A stretch of 11,171 nt of DNA from positions 1-11,171 of the forward strand of contig LJUI01000117.1 in NCBI GenBank assembly GCA_001303705.1. The letters run 5' to 3'. Position 1 is the stretch's first letter. The number at the start of each line of letters is the position of its first letter. Position numbers and translations under genes: made by a program. The notes under the pieces are model-generated. The model ran no database searches, had not been told where the DNA came from, and was given only the letters and a program-made list of their open reading frames with translations. This DNA is from a candidate division TA06 bacterium SM23_40 (GTDB taxonomy: Bacteria > LJUI01 > SM1-40). Positions 1 to 5,086 of this stretch are shown in pieces.

Positions 1-2835
1 ATACGAGATGTCCCGTAGCTCATCCTCGAAGAGGGTCAGCGGGTGGCGGCTGACCAGGAACCCGAGCACCTCTACTTCATGGCGAAGGAGCATCCCTTCG
101 TCGTAATCGGGAACCTCGGGAAGAGGATCGTCGAGATGTTTCCCCAGGCGCCGCTCGCCCATCACCGCGTACAGTTGCCACATGAGCTGAGGCCGCGTCC
201 TCCCCCGGGCGATCGAGTCGAAGCACCCCGCCTTGATGAGCACCTTCACGTCCGATGGATCGACGTCGACCCGATCGAGGAATTCGGCGAACGATCTATA
301 TGGTCCCCCTCGCCGCCGCTCCTCGAGGATCGCCTCCAGGCCGGCCGAAGAAAGCCCCTTGAGCTGCATCAGCCCGACGCGCACCTCGCGGTCCACCCCG
401 GTGTACGGCTCCTCGCTCAGATTGATGTCGGGCGGGAGCACCGCCAGACCCATTCGCTTCGCCTCGGAGACATAGGCGAATGTCGCATAGTATCCGCCCT
501 GATTGGAGATGACCGCGGCCATGAACTCGGCAGGATAGTGGGCGCGCAGATAGGCCGACTTGAACGAGACGAGCGCATACGAGGCGCTGTGCGGCTTACA
601 GAAGCTATACCCGCTGAAGCTGAGGATCATCTCCCACACCCGGTCGATCACCTCACGGGCCACGCCCCGCGCCCCCGCTCCCCCGTAGAACTGGTCCCGA
701 TAATCCCGGAGCTGCTTCTGCGCCCGCTTCCTGGAGAGCGCCTTCCGCAGCCCATCTCCATCGACGGCATCGAACCCCGCCATCGCCATGGCGACCTTGG
801 TGACATCCTCCTGATAGCACATGATCCCGTAGGTCTCCCGGAGGAGTTCATCGAGAATGGGATGGAGCGAAGTATAGGCGCCGCCGTGGAGGCGACGGAC
901 GTACTCTCTGATGTAGGTGTTGGCGGCAGGGCGGATGATCGAGCTATGGATCACCAGATGTTCGAAGTCGCCGGTCCCCGTCTTCTCCTGGAGCTGGCGC
1001 ATGGCCGGCGACTCGACATAGAAGACGCCGATCGTGTCGCCGCGCGCGATCAACTGCTGGGTCGCCGGATCGTGGAGCGGATCCCAGGTCCGGTAGTCGA
1101 TCTCGATCCCATAGTTCGCCTTCACCGCCGCGAGCACGTCGCGGATCACCGCCAGCGAACGGTTCCCCAATAGATCGATCTTGACCAATCCGCTGTCCTC
1201 GGCCTGATCCTTCTCCCACTGGATGATGTTGACTCCTTTCGGCGCCGGCTCCATCGGCACGTGGCGACTGATCGCATCGGGGACGATGATCATCCCTCCG
1301 CAATGGACGGAGAGGTGGCGGGGAAATCCGTCGATCGCCAGGGCGAGGTTGATGATCTCCGGCCAGGGGGGTGAGAGATCGATATCTTTGAACAGGGGAT
1401 GGTGCTGGATGAGGCCGGGGAGCCGATGCCTGCCCCAGAGTTGTCTCAACCGTCCGGTGACATTCCTGATCTCCCCCTCGGGCAGGCCATAGACCTTGGC
1501 GATCTCGCGGACCGCGGCCCGCGCCCGCAGACAGACGTGATTCGCCACCATCGCCGCGCGGTCTGTGCCATACCGCCGAAAGACATAATCGAGCACATCG
1601 TCGCGCTCGTCCCAGGGGAAATCGACATCGATGTCGGGCGCGTCCTTCCGGCCCGGATTGAGAAACCGCTCGAAAAACAGATGGTACTCGATGGGATCGA
1701 CATGGGTGATGCCAAGACTGTAGGAGACGATGCTGGCGGCGGCCGAACCGCGTCCGCAGGTGCGCGGAAAGCGCGAGACGATGTCCTCGACGATGAGGAA
1801 GTAGCTGGCAAATCCCTTCTCTCCGATGATCGCGAGTTCGTGTTCGAGCCGCTCGACCAGCTCGCGCGGCAGCTCCTTTTCCTCGGGAATACCGTACCGG
1901 CGGCGCGCGCCCTCATAGGAGCGGGCGCGCAGCGTCTGCAGGGCGCGATCCTTCCCCGGCCCCGCGAAATCGGGGAAGGCGAATTCACGAAACTCCCAGT
2001 CGACGACACAGGCAGCCGCGATCCGTGTCGCGTTCTTCAGGGCCTCGGGACAGTAGACGAAGGCCTTCGCCATTTCATGCGGCGGCTTGAGCCAGGCGCT
2101 CCGCGGGGCGAGCTCCCGTGGAGGCAGGCGCGACAGTTTGGTATTGCAATCGATCGCCCGCACCAGCCGGTGGATAACGAACTCCTCGGGATCGAGGAAG
2201 TGGACGGCATTCGTCGCCACCGGAGGGATGCCGAGCTCACGGGCGAGGCACACCACTTCGTCTGTCGTCCCGCCGGGCCGGAGCTCGGCATAGAGAGGAG
2301 CGACCTCGGCTGCGGACGTCGCCGCGGACAGAGACACGTACGTTGATGCGTCTCCGCCGCCTGCCCGACAGACCCCATGACCTCGCCCGCGGGGTGGATG
2401 GCCCGTTCCGGTCGGCCGCCAGAGATGGCCGGCCGACCGGAGAAGGGGACTGGCGAGCTGGCGGAGGAGCCCGACCGAGTCGCTCAATACGACGATTCCC
2501 TCGCGGTCGTGGACCAGAGCGCGGGCCAGGGAGAACTTCTCATCGCAGTGGCGCTGCGAGATGAGACGACAGAGAGTCTCATATCCCCGACGACTCCGTG
2601 CCAGCACCACAGCGCGCTCATCGCCCGTCACGAGCTCGGCACCGATGATAGGGTGGATGCCGAACTCCTTCGCCACCTGGAGGAATATGATGAGTCCATA
2701 GAGTCCATTCGTATCGGTGAGCGCCAGGGTATCCATTCCCCGCGCTCTGGCGACACGACAGACATCCTCGATTGGTGCCGTCCCCCGCATCATCGAGTAG
2801 TAACTATGGACATGGAGATGGACGAACCGCGACAT
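1..2835 (-). CDS. dnaE2: DNA polymerase III alpha subunit, DnaE2/ImuC-like, 3' end outside window
   Basis: C-family replicative-type polymerase catalysing template-directed DNA synthesis. The frame is open for 945 codons with no stop and leaves the window before its C terminus. The N-terminal PHP domain begins with HLHVHSYYS (residues 6-14). Catalytic Asps lie in PDIDVDF (D401, D403) and KIDLLGNR (D554). GRGSAAAS precedes the palm, and FCKPHSASYALVSFKSAYL with HYPAEFMAAV marks the fingers. The ATG at 2835 is chosen because an in-frame TAA lies 16 codons upstream and an AGG lies 7 bases before it. It follows lexA and the imuB-like gene on the same strand, which argues for the error-prone SOS polymerase (DnaE2/ImuC) rather than the replicative DnaE1. 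The C terminus that would help decide is missing. Odd feature: about 50 low-complexity residues (129-178) containing a perfect palindrome. Polymerase identity is very sure; the DnaE2 role is inferred from context. Confidence 0.9.
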   Translation of the reverse strand, partial: MSRFVHLHVHSYYSMMRGTAPIEDVCRVARARGMDTLALTDTNGLYGLIIFLQVAKEFGIHPIIGAELVTGDERAVVLARSRRGYETLCRLISQRHCDEKFSLARALVHDREGIVVLSDSVGLLRQLASPLLRSAGHLWRPTGTGHPPRGRGHGVCRAGGGDASTYVSLSAATSAAEVAPLYAELRPGGTTDEVVCLARELGIPPVATNAVHFLDPEEFVIHRLVRAIDCNTKLSRLPPRELAPRSAWLKPPHEMAKAFVYCPEALKNATRIAAACVVDWEFREFAFPDFAGPGKDRALQTLRARSYEGARRRYGIPEEKELPRELVERLEHELAIIGEKGFASYFLIVEDIVSRFPRTCGRGSAAASIVSYSLGITHVDPIEYHLFFERFLNPGRKDAPDIDVDFPWDERDDVLDYVFRRYGTDRAAMVANHVCLRARAAVREIAKVYGLPEGEIRNVTGRLRQLWGRHRLPGLIQHHPLFKDIDLSPPWPEIINLALAIDGFPRHLSVHCGGMIIVPDAISRHVPMEPAPKGVNIIQWEKDQAEDSGLVKIDLLGNRSLAVIRDVLAAVKANYGIEIDYRTWDPLHDPATQQLIARGDTIGVFYVESPAMRQLQEKTGTGDFEHLVIHSSIIRPAANTYIREYVRRLHGGAYTSLHPILDELLRETYGIMCYQEDVTKVAMAMAGFDAVDGDGLRKALSRKRAQKQLRDYRDQFYGGAGARGVAREVIDRVWEMILSFSGYSFCKPHSASYALVSFKSAYLRAHYPAEFMAAVISNQGGYYATFAYVSEAKRMGLAVLPPDINLSEEPYTGVDREVRVGLMQLKGLSSAGLEAILEERRRGGPYRSFAEFLDRVDVDPSDVKVLIKAGCFDSIARGRTRPQLMWQLYAVMGERRLGKHLDDPLPEVPDYDEGMLLRHEVEVLGFLVSRHPLTLFEDELRDISY
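2407..2441. repeat. 12-bp perfect palindrome inside dnaE
   Basis: Arms TCCGGTCGGCCG (2407-2418) and CGGCCGACCGGA (2430-2441) are perfect inverted repeats with an 11-nt loop. They lie within the coding frame of the polymerase gene, in a stretch encoding Gly/Arg/Pro-rich sequence not expected between the PHP-domain segments ending LLRQLA and starting LYAELRPG. It could be an in-frame palindromic insertion or a chance product of GC-rich sequence. Confidence 0.6.
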
Positions 2836-3024
2836 CAGAGTACCTGTTTCATCATTAGAGTACCTGTCCCATCGAAACTCTTATTCCATCATCGGAGTAC
2901 CCGTCCCACCATCGGAGCATCTGTCCCATCGGGACGCCCGCCCCATCATCAGAACACCTGTCCCATTATCAGGGCACCCGCTCCATCATCGGGACACCTG
3001 TCCTATCATCAGAGCACCCGTCCC
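2831..3024 (-). repeat. degenerate 20-bp tandem repeat array between imuB and dnaE
   Basis: Ten adjoining units of 20, 20, 17, 20, 20, 17, 20, 20, 20 and 20 bp. Minus-strand consensus is GGGACRGGTRCTCTGATGAT. The two 17-bp units (2871-2887, 2928-2944) close two 57-bp super-units. The first unit in the transcribed direction contains the imuB stop; the last contains the SD-like sequence and ATG of dnaE. Several internal units read as tiny frames such as M-G-Q-V-L-stop, matching the imuB C-terminal MGRVL, with the stop overlapping a following ATG (TGATG). There are no unique spacers, so this is not a CRISPR array. It looks like a tandemly copied translational-coupling junction. Confidence 0.9.
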
Positions 3025-4274
3025 ATCCGAATGGCCTCGCCGCCATACTTTTCACGGATCCTGTCGATCGCCGCGACCAGTTCGCGATCCCTTTGCACAC
3101 CTTCTCGCCCGGACGAGCGGGCAGCTCTGTTCTCTCCCGTACAGCCGAAGAGATCGAGCTGGCGGGTGCGCACAATCAGGTCGGTAAGCTGGATCGAGAG
3201 ATGGCGCACACGCTGCCTTCGGTCGCAGGCCTGGAAGAACAGGGACTCAACGTGGCGGAAAAGATACATATCGAGAGTCGTCCTCTCGTCGAACCCTGCG
3301 CGGTCGAGCCGCGGCCGGCCGTCACCGCGCGATCTACCGCTACCTTGCCCCCGACCATCGAGCCTGGTGCGCCGCACCCGCTCGACATGATCGGCATAGC
3401 GGAGCGTGAGCGTCAGCCGCCTCGCCACTACACCCCCCTTTCGCAACCGATGCGCCGCTCGCTCGCTCATCGCATAGAGTTCAGCGAGGAGACGCCGATC
3501 GTCGTTCGTATCCTCCGCCAGGAAACCTTCCTCGACGATCGCCGGCCTCCGCTGCGGCGGGCGCACCGGAGTGGGATCGATCCCCAACGCCTGCCGATGA
3601 AGCACATAGGCAACACGCCCGAAGACGACGGTGAGATAACCGATCGGTATCACCGCCAGCTGGCGGATGAGGCGAATATTCAGTTCCTCAACAAGCACCT
3701 CCTCGGTGTCCTGTTTCAATTCCGGCAACACACGCACGGTCAGCGGCGCGAGAAAGGCTGCCTCGCCCCCATGTTCGACATCGCAGACGTCCCCATCAGG
3801 CTGGATGATCCTGGCCGCCACTCTGCTCACAAGTTTATTCGATGCGATGCCGACCGTCCCCCTGAGCGAGAGCCGGCTCGATATCTCCCGCCGCATCCTC
3901 GCCGCCACATCCCTGGGTTCGCCGAAGAGACGCCGCGTCCCGGTTATGTCGATGAAGAGATGACCGTATGAGGACGGCTCCACCAGGGGCGAGAACTCCC
4001 CCAGTACCTCGTACACCGAGCGGGATGCGGCCCGGTACAGTATCTCGTTGGGGGGGATCACCACCAGGTCCCGGCACCACCGACGCGCATGTGCGAGCGG
4101 CATCCCCTTGCGGATGCCGGCACGGTAGGCCTCGATGGAGGCGCAGCGCACCGCTGCCCGGGCCGCTCCCGGCACACCGATGACGACCGGCCTGCCGCGC
4201 AGCCGCGGTTCCCGCACCTCCTCGACCGCCACCCCAAAGGCGGCGATGTCAAGATGTATAATGTGACGCTCCAT
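3009..4274 (-). CDS. imuB: ImuB-like catalytically impaired Y-family DNA polymerase
   Basis: Y-family (DinB/UmuC) fold of 421 residues. The first palm motif HLDIAAFGVAVEE keeps D9. The second motif, SIDEAYLDVT in DinB, reads SYGHLFIDIT here: the Asp-Glu pair is replaced by G104-H105, so two of the three metal ligands are gone. TVGIASNKLVSRVAA is the usual Y-family palm segment. QLDLF at 372-376 is a strong beta-clamp binding motif, and the tail REKYGGEAIR resembles DinB ends. Known ImuB proteins likewise lack catalytic acids and link DnaE2/ImuC to the clamp, so a scaffold role in error-prone lesion bypass is inferred. The start overlaps the lexA end by 26 bp, suggesting translational coupling. 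A low-complexity Arg/Gly stretch precedes DRAGFDERTTLD. A divergent DinB with residual activity cannot be excluded. Confidence 0.85.
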   Translation of the reverse strand: MERHIIHLDIAAFGVAVEEVREPRLRGRPVVIGVPGAARAAVRCASIEAYRAGIRKGMPLAHARRWCRDLVVIPPNEILYRAASRSVYEVLGEFSPLVEPSSYGHLFIDITGTRRLFGEPRDVAARMRREISSRLSLRGTVGIASNKLVSRVAARIIQPDGDVCDVEHGGEAAFLAPLTVRVLPELKQDTEEVLVEELNIRLIRQLAVIPIGYLTVVFGRVAYVLHRQALGIDPTPVRPPQRRPAIVEEGFLAEDTNDDRRLLAELYAMSERAAHRLRKGGVVARRLTLTLRYADHVERVRRTRLDGRGQGSGRSRGDGRPRLDRAGFDERTTLDMYLFRHVESLFFQACDRRQRVRHLSIQLTDLIVRTRQLDLFGCTGENRAARSSGREGVQRDRELVAAIDRIREKYGGEAIRMGRVL

Positions 4275-4872
4275 AGTTCCGAATCAGCCCCACCACCACA
4301 CCGCGGATCGAGAACTCACCCTCGGTCACCACGATGGGGCTGAGGGCGGCGTTGGCCGGACGAAGCTCGACCCCTGCCCCGGTGCGATAGAACCGCTTCA
4401 CCGTCGCCTCGCCATCGACCAACGCCACCACTGTCTGCCCATCGTCGGCCGTCTCCTGCCGCTTGACGATCAACAGGTCACCATCGAGGATCCCGTCATC
4501 GACCATAGACTGGCCCTCTACTTCGAGCGCATAGTGCTCGCCGTGGTGGAGCATGGCCTGCGGCACCTCGACCGTTCCCGGCTGCTCCACCACCTCAAGC
4601 GGACGCCCCGCGGCGACCGGTCCCAACAGCGGCAGTTCGACCGTTCCGCTCCGCTCCCAATCCACCAGCGCAAGGGCCCGCTTCTGGTTCCTCCACGGGC
4701 TCTGGATCACGCCCTTCTCCGCGAGCCGCCTCAGATGTTTCTGCACGGAGTTGAGCGAGCGAAATCCGAAATGCCGGCGGATTTCGTCATATGAAGGGGC
4801 CACTCCTTCCCGGGCTACATAGGCCCGGATGAATTCATAGACCTCTCGTTGCCGCCTGGTCAGCATCATCAT
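4249..4872 (-). CDS. lexA: SOS repressor LexA
   Basis: Transcriptional repressor that self-cleaves when stimulated by the RecA filament, derepressing DNA-damage genes. From the chosen ATG it has 207 residues. The N-terminal winged helix spans about 1-65 (LTRRQREVYEFI; PSYDEIRRHFGF; SLNSVQKHLRRLAEKG). The cleavage bond is A88-G89 in VAAGRP. The catalytic dyad is S122 (GQSMVDDGI) and K159 (GEATVKRFYR). The start at 4872 is supported by GAGGAG at 4887-4882, nine bases upstream; the longer GTG reading from 4893 would put this SD inside the gene. It heads the lexA-imuB-dnaE operon and overlaps imuB, so it is probably autoregulated together with the mutagenesis genes. Its recognition helix differs from that of E. 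coli, consistent with a lineage-specific operator. Confidence 0.95.
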   Translation of the reverse strand: MMMLTRRQREVYEFIRAYVAREGVAPSYDEIRRHFGFRSLNSVQKHLRRLAEKGVIQSPWRNQKRALALVDWERSGTVELPLLGPVAAGRPLEVVEQPGTVEVPQAMLHHGEHYALEVEGQSMVDDGILDGDLLIVKRQETADDGQTVVALVDGEATVKRFYRTGAGVELRPANAALSPIVVTEGEFSIRGVVVGLIRNYGASHYTS

Positions 4873-4937
4873 GCTCGGCCTCTCCTCACACACGCCGTTC
4901 TCTTCGTGATATGCTTCTCATCGCTACGGGAGATCAT
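4869..4937 (-). CDS. possible 22-residue leader peptide upstream of lexA
   Basis: A short frame begins at ATG 4937, preceded by GAGGA six bases upstream, and runs MISRSDEKHITKRTACVRRG to a TGA at 4871-4869. That stop overlaps the lexA start as ATGA, the usual geometry for coupled translation. It lies inside the lexA transcript predicted from the 5058-5086 promoter. The peptide resembles nothing I know and has no Trp or Leu run typical of attenuators. A short frame with an SD could occur by chance, so this is tentative. Confidence 0.3.
   Translation of the reverse strand: MISRSDEKHITKRTACVRRGRA
4879..4887 (-). promoter_or_regulatory. ribosome binding site of lexA
   Basis: GAGGAGAGG on the minus strand ends six bases before the ATG at 4872, with the GAGGAG core nine bases away. 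It decides the lexA start against the in-frame GTG at 4893, which lies upstream of it. Confidence 0.75.
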
Positions 4938-4968
4938 TCGGTATCCTCGGTTGTCAGCCGTCGCCTAT

Positions 4969-4994
4969 CACCTGCCACCTGCCACCTGCCACCC
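4969..4994. repeat. 7-bp tandem repeat in lexA leader
   Basis: CACCTGC occurs three times in a row plus a partial fourth copy on the plus strand; on the lexA transcript this is a GCAGGTG array. It lies about 60 bases downstream of the predicted lexA transcription start. Likely a slippage-prone microsatellite; no function is evident. Confidence 0.75.
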
Positions 4995-5057
4995 ATCACC
5001 CTCACCCGTCGTGCGTCGCCCGTTGACTATCGACCACAGGCTATCATGCCGGTACTC

Positions 5058-5086
5058 ATTATAGGTGTAAGTAAGGTGTAAGTCAA
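5058..5086 (-). promoter_or_regulatory. lexA operon promoter with embedded direct-repeat operator candidate
   Basis: TTGACT (5086-5081), a 17-bp spacer, and a perfect TATAAT (5063-5058) point toward lexA, with transcription expected to start near 5051. The spacer contains ACTTACACC twice at an 11-bp period (plus strand AGGTGTAAGT at 5063-5072 and 5074-5083). This gives a TTAC-N7-TTAC layout, the geometry of the GTTC-N7-GTTC LexA sites of alphaproteobacteria. A repressor bound here would block both promoter elements. Promoter call is strong; assigning the repeats to LexA is inference. Confidence 0.8.

Follow-up and report, generated by a model that had tools for sequence, protein, structure and literature searches.

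A probably tolerated tandem array seeded by a coupled stop/start junction fills the imuB-dnaE2 spacer of candidate division TA06 bacterium SM23_40

Results

The spacer between imuB and dnaE2 in candidate division TA06 bacterium SM23_40 is filled completely by a degenerate tandem array whose unit is the natural 3' end of imuB, and an ATG-only path of terminations and restarts runs through it, complete, from the imuB stop to the dnaE start. We propose that the array grew out of a coupled junction as a minisatellite that is compatible with translation and has been tolerated, and that it lowers DnaE2 relative to ImuB; from the sequence we regard this reading as probable, if far from assured. The window analysed here is the whole 11,171-nucleotide stretch of contig LJUI01000117.1, and its features are collected in Table 1.

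Table 1. Features of the lexA-imuB-dnaE2 locus in window coordinates
Feature	Position	Strand	Evidence
lexA	4249..4893	(-)	TIGR00498, 205 bits
imuB, 421 aa, Y-family polymerase-like accessory protein	3009..4274	(-)	Pfam IMS 1.7e-39 and IMS_C
dnaE2/imuC-type C-family polymerase, first 945 aa	1..2835	(-)	Pfam DNA_pol3_alpha and PHP
Unit u0, 17 nt, codes M-G-R-V-L-TG of imuB, array seed	3010..3026	(-)	ImuB homologue C-termini
Spacer units u1-u9 (7 of 20 nt, 2 of 17 nt)	2836..3009	(-)	TRF, unit register
Mini-ORF 1, MIGQVSR-stop, starts in imuB TGATG, ends in TGATG	2986..3009	(-)	
Mini-ORF 2, MERVP-stop, ends TGATAATG	2969..2986	(-)	
Mini-ORF 3, MGQVF-stop, ends TGATG	2949..2966	(-)	
Mini-ORF 4, MMGRASRWDRCSDGGTGTPMME-stop, spans u4-u7; weakest link, 8 nt from stop to following ATG	2881..2949	(-)	
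Mini-ORF 5, MGQVL-stop, ends TAATG	2855..2872	(-)	
Mini-ORF 6, MMKQVL-stop, ends TGATG at dnaE start	2835..2855	(-)	
sigma70-like promoter TTGACT-17-TATAAT upstream of lexA	5058..5086	(-)	11/12 matches

The preliminary description had named the flanking genes imuB and dnaE, and both names are confirmed by their Pfam domains. With a LexA-linked ImuB and a second DnaE, the locus is a lexA-imuB-dnaE2 mutagenesis cassette; a distinct DnaE, 37% identical to the dnaE2 product, is encoded elsewhere in the genome (G000:C76), and the cassette is without imuA at this locus, as neither the lexA-imuB nor the imuB-dnaE interval contains any gene. The dnaE gene runs past the contig end and continues on contig C69. 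The imuB product carries SSYGHLFIDITG where DinB has the motif SxDEAYLDVT, and by this comparison its catalytic D/E pair is absent. Because lexA overlaps the start of imuB by 26 bp, the stretch of about 173 to 174 nt from the imuB stop to the dnaE ATG is the sole real gap in the operon. Within dnaE itself, the PHP region holds a low-complexity insertion of about 45 residues (window ~2310-2445, minus strand) that the nearest relative does not have.

TRF placed the array at 2833-3027 with period 20, 10.1 copies and a score of 96, and a period of 40 scored higher (151). Read in register from the imuB end, the units are ATGGGACGGGTGCTCTG (u0), ATGATAGGACAGGTGTCCCG, ATGATGGAGCGGGTGCCCTG, ATAATGGGACAGGTGTTCTG, ATGATGGGGCGGGCGTCCCG, ATGGGACAGATGCTCCG, ATGGTGGGACGGGTACTCCG, ATGATGGAATAAGAGTTTCG, ATGGGACAGGTACTCTA and ATGATGAAACAGGTACTCTG (u9), followed by dnaE ATGTCGCGG; from 3009 down to 2836, u1 to u9 measure 20, 20, 20, 20, 17, 20, 20, 17 and 20 nt, and the dnaE ATG stands at 2835. 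The earlier count of ten 20-bp units, two of them 17 bp, is right only if the imuB end is included, in which case the 17-nt units number three, two of them in the spacer. No neighboring units are identical; mean identity is 67% between adjacent units and 74% between next neighbors, a difference that fits expansion in two-unit blocks. Of 191 positions compared with the unit consensus, 35 are changed, 34 by a transition. Counted over the array (2836-3026), transitions and transversions stand at 35:2, and at 190:128 in the other arrays of the genome taken together; as those arrays range individually from transversion-rich to 6:0, we rejected the transition bias as a sign of selection.

The origin of the unit can be read from the protein that it terminates. 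ImuB homologues end in matching tails, IRNRYGEDAIQFGRAA (AIQFGRAA-stop) and IRQRFGRESIKTGRRLAA (SIKTGRRLAA-stop) against IREKYGGEAIRMGRVL (AIRMGRVL-stop) here, so that u0 is genuine imuB coding sequence. Among eight relatives with a measurable imuB-dnaE junction, four have an overlapping ATGA and the others have gaps of 32, 89, 118 and 513 nt, and none carries an array at that position. The unit reproduces the natural imuB terminus, M-G-R-V-L followed by a stop that overlaps the ATG after it, so its derivation from a duplicated coupled junction, which the preliminary description had suggested, is well supported. A search for the unit pattern with three mismatches allowed gave eight matches in the array and, in the rest of the genome, one three-mismatch match, about the level of a reversed-pattern control; the unit thus has no other genomic copy, which excludes a dispersed repeat family and argues that the array arose locally. 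Among the genomes searched, the phylum is represented by the source genome alone, and a contig scan for closer relatives yielded one truncated relative.

From the imuB stop to dnaE the ATG-only path takes seven termination-restart steps through six mini-ORFs, the first overlapping the imuB stop and the sixth the dnaE start in the same orientation. The next start lies +2, -1, +5, +2, +11, +2 and +2 nt from the first base of each stop in turn, that is, by stop/start overlap or a gap of a few nucleotides at every step, the +11 step being marginal. The preliminary claims that several inner units keep the TGATG geometry and that ribosomes could step through the array are correct in part. Direct TGATG or TAATG overlap occurs at 6 of 10 unit boundaries, one further boundary reads TGATAATG, and three (u4/u5, u5/u6 and u7/u8) read CGATG without an overlapping stop; the path is topologically complete but includes an 8-nt gap. 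The weak place is u4-u7: a T-to-C change in TGA leaves a hole there, bridged only by a single 22-codon ORF and that gap. No column of the unit varies more than this T (5 T to 5 C), and ATG is kept in all nine spacer units. The six ATG columns are the most conserved, with 3 of 51 cells changed against 32 of 140 elsewhere (Fisher p=0.006, on tandem copies whose cells are not independent).

How far such a path could be due to chance depends on the control. A complete relay arose in about 0.6% of mononucleotide shuffles of the spacer. In a simulation of neutral decay, which began from the consensus and applied the observed number and type of changes, the full path survived in about 9% of runs, and about 5% retained ATG in every one of the nine spacer units, so that the evidence for upkeep of the path is suggestive only. 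Relay length by itself is no strong evidence, because chains of four to five steps arise by chance in ordinary sequence once mini-ORFs as long as 40 codons are counted. Most copies in the recJ leader array of the same genome have lost the start triplet, ATG remaining in 6 of 14. Taken together, these comparisons suggest that the start codons of the imuB-dnaE array may be kept up by selection.

SD pairing accompanies most of the inner start codons. Against the tail of the genome's 16S rRNA (GGATCACCTCCTTTCT), the inner units mostly pair at about -6 to -8.7 kcal/mol, compared with a median of -6.3 for gene starts, and dnaE's own start pairs weakly at -3.9 kcal/mol. A sigma70-like scan found no site in the spacer or the imuB end, the strongest on the strand being that upstream of lexA; no internal terminator was seen either, and both candidates were discarded. 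In the lexA leader (window 4967-5086, minus strand) the heptamer GGCAGGT is repeated 3.6 times, and a direct repeat CTTACACC..CTTACACC overlaps the lexA promoter as a possible LexA operator. The RNA fold of the array is no stronger than that of shuffles (z +1.26) and Rfam gave no match in it, and on these grounds an RNA element was rejected; CsrA sites were rejected because the genome is without CsrA.

Degenerate minisatellites of 12-60 bp are frequent in this genome, at about 40 per Mb or five times the sampled controls, each locus having its own unit and most lying in spacers. Across three sets of stretches that add up to 760 kb, or some 25% of the genome (loci L054-L094 and L119-L138), we counted 33 arrays of period 12-70 and at least 2.8 copies, or 43 per Mb; with a three-copy cut, 535 kb of the genome gave 37 per Mb vs 7.7 per Mb in controls (390 kb from 20 other genomes). 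They adjoin recJ, clpB, scpA and a macro-domain gene among others, and 28 of 29 lie between co-directional genes, against a background co-directionality of about 85%; inspecting the periods by eye showed no genome-wide preference for a unit length of 2 mod 3. One of them forms a second relay (L086:8630-8716, minus strand, period 23), in which a GGGAGG SD-like site precedes the first unit and three perfect ATGA steps lead into a methyltransferase gene through MTSGTGTP, MTSGTGTR and MISGEGT, the stop of each overlapping the next start. Upstream of recJ, L064:3969-4290 (minus strand) repeats that gene's start region (AGGAGC-ATG-GATCGCAG) fifteen times in 22-bp units. A pattern search in other bacteria found 20-bp tandem duplications on gene 3' ends with TGATG at three loci (L171, L172 and L179). 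Given these similar arrays in the genome and in other bacteria, junction-seeded arrays appear to be recurrent, and the imuB-dnaE array one of a class. On the viral contig L165 (IMGVR_UViG_3300049221_000011), positions 2291-2686 hold five matches of a 23-bp-spaced TGATG pattern.

Discussion

We propose that the ancestral imuB-dnaE2 junction was directly coupled, its stop and start overlapping as TGATG, and that a piece of 17 to 20 nt comprising the last imuB codons, the stop and the dnaE ATG was tandem-duplicated repeatedly, partly as 40-nt doublets, in a genome prone to forming such arrays. Experiments in E. coli and Haloferax found that coupling is nearly lost once genes stand about 20 nt apart (PMC10666635), so that a plain gap of 173 nt would be expected to uncouple dnaE; the distance rules are disputed, as work cited in PMC12548453 reports spacing of up to +25 nt without reduced coupling. 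The array, by comparison, would be compatible with translation because its units measure 2 mod 3 in length and every copy supplies an ATG, SD-like sequence ahead of it and, in most cases, a stop, and for that reason it may have been tolerated. Ribosomes that finish imuB, or that initiate anew on inner units, would step from mini-ORF to mini-ORF and then onto dnaE, the mini-ORFs being translated and dnaE reached through restarts at a rate presumably below that of the ancestral junction. The insert would thus pose no block, with DnaE2 output most likely reduced relative to ImuB, and selection may maintain the path.

The alternative that we take most seriously, though we think it unlikely, is a purely neutral minisatellite without effect on coupling, whose geometry is left over from its origin, with dnaE translation beginning at that gene's own weak start. 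The abundance of arrays at unrelated genes, the freely decaying stop column and the fraction of neutral simulations that retain the relay or all ATGs speak for such a reading, but it sits poorly with start columns that are more conserved than the rest, with the presence of the full path and with the weak SD at dnaE itself. At the other extreme, the array could be a selected translational ladder, its mini-cistrons passing on a fixed fraction of ribosomes per step to hold a low DnaE2:ImuB ratio under SOS, with similar ladders, such as that before the L086 methyltransferase, across the lineage; we consider this improbable.

Regulatory readings fare worse still. The preliminary description had speculated that changes in unit number adjust the output of the error-prone polymerase, for which there is a precedent in M. 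tuberculosis, where the amount of fpg1 mRNA follows how long the rnc-fpg1 repeat array is (PMC2734929). We did not find this idea borne out, and hold it very improbable: a VNTR or contingency locus has near-identical units, whereas adjacent units here are so diverged (mean identity 0.67, none identical) that slippage is disfavored, dozens of similar minisatellites lie at unrelated genes, and the unit number comes from a single genome of the phylum. Even less probable is an internal promoter region from which dnaE would be transcribed separately; the senX3-regX3 intergenic MIRUs are reported to have promoter activity (PMC4213456), but the sigma70-like scan described above points upstream of lexA and not to the spacer. 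Least probable of all, in our view, is a protein- or RNA-binding array acting on dnaE, through 20-bp phasing of about two helical turns or through a post-transcriptional regulator such as CsrA. The periodicity of about 20 bp and the GGA in most units would suit such a role, as has been proposed for the Beggiatoaceae TAACTGA repeats upstream of starts (PMC4679880); against it stand a genome without CsrA, the unremarkable fold and Rfam result, the absence of the unit from the rest of the genome and a seed that is imuB coding sequence.

If the tolerated, translation-compatible minisatellite that we favor is the right reading, a long tandem insertion can settle in a tightly coupled operon junction and leave translation with no obvious interruption, since the duplicated TGATG junction carries its own restart signals. 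The array would then serve as a natural experiment on the number of successive termination-reinitiation events that one ribosome can complete, in a lineage where junction-duplication events appear to be frequent.

The array resembles repeats known from mycobacteria and is not a new kind of element, its nearest counterparts being MIRUs and rnc-fpg1. MIRUs, like the array, are short repeats between co-directional operon genes, with small ORFs coupled by stop/start overlap to the downstream gene, an arrangement thought to limit harm to expression (PMC12548453), and tandem copies occur between senX3 and regX3 (PMC4213456). They differ in being dispersed, apparently mobile elements of about 40-100 bp (53 and 77 bp at senX3-regX3), whereas the imuB-dnaE units are 17-20 bp long, derive locally from the imuB end and are not dispersed. 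At the rnc-fpg1 locus (ETR-F/VNTR3239) of M. tuberculosis, tandem repeats have expanded a junction that spans just a few bp elsewhere among mycobacteria, and the repeats end, as here, at the initiation codon of a gene for DNA repair; the units there are larger, composite and polymorphic, their effect was seen on mRNA, and an excerpt of PMC2734929 describes no stop/start relay. The steps of the array use the ATGA/TGATG overlap geometry of pairs coupled by termination-reinitiation (PMC6728339, PMC10666635), with six mini-ORFs chained in the imuB-dnaE spacer vs a single junction in ordinary pairs. Finally, the Beggiatoaceae TAACTGA repeats are likewise direct repeats found genome-wide just upstream of start codons (PMC4679880), but there a single fixed heptamer recurs, whereas here each locus has its own unit.
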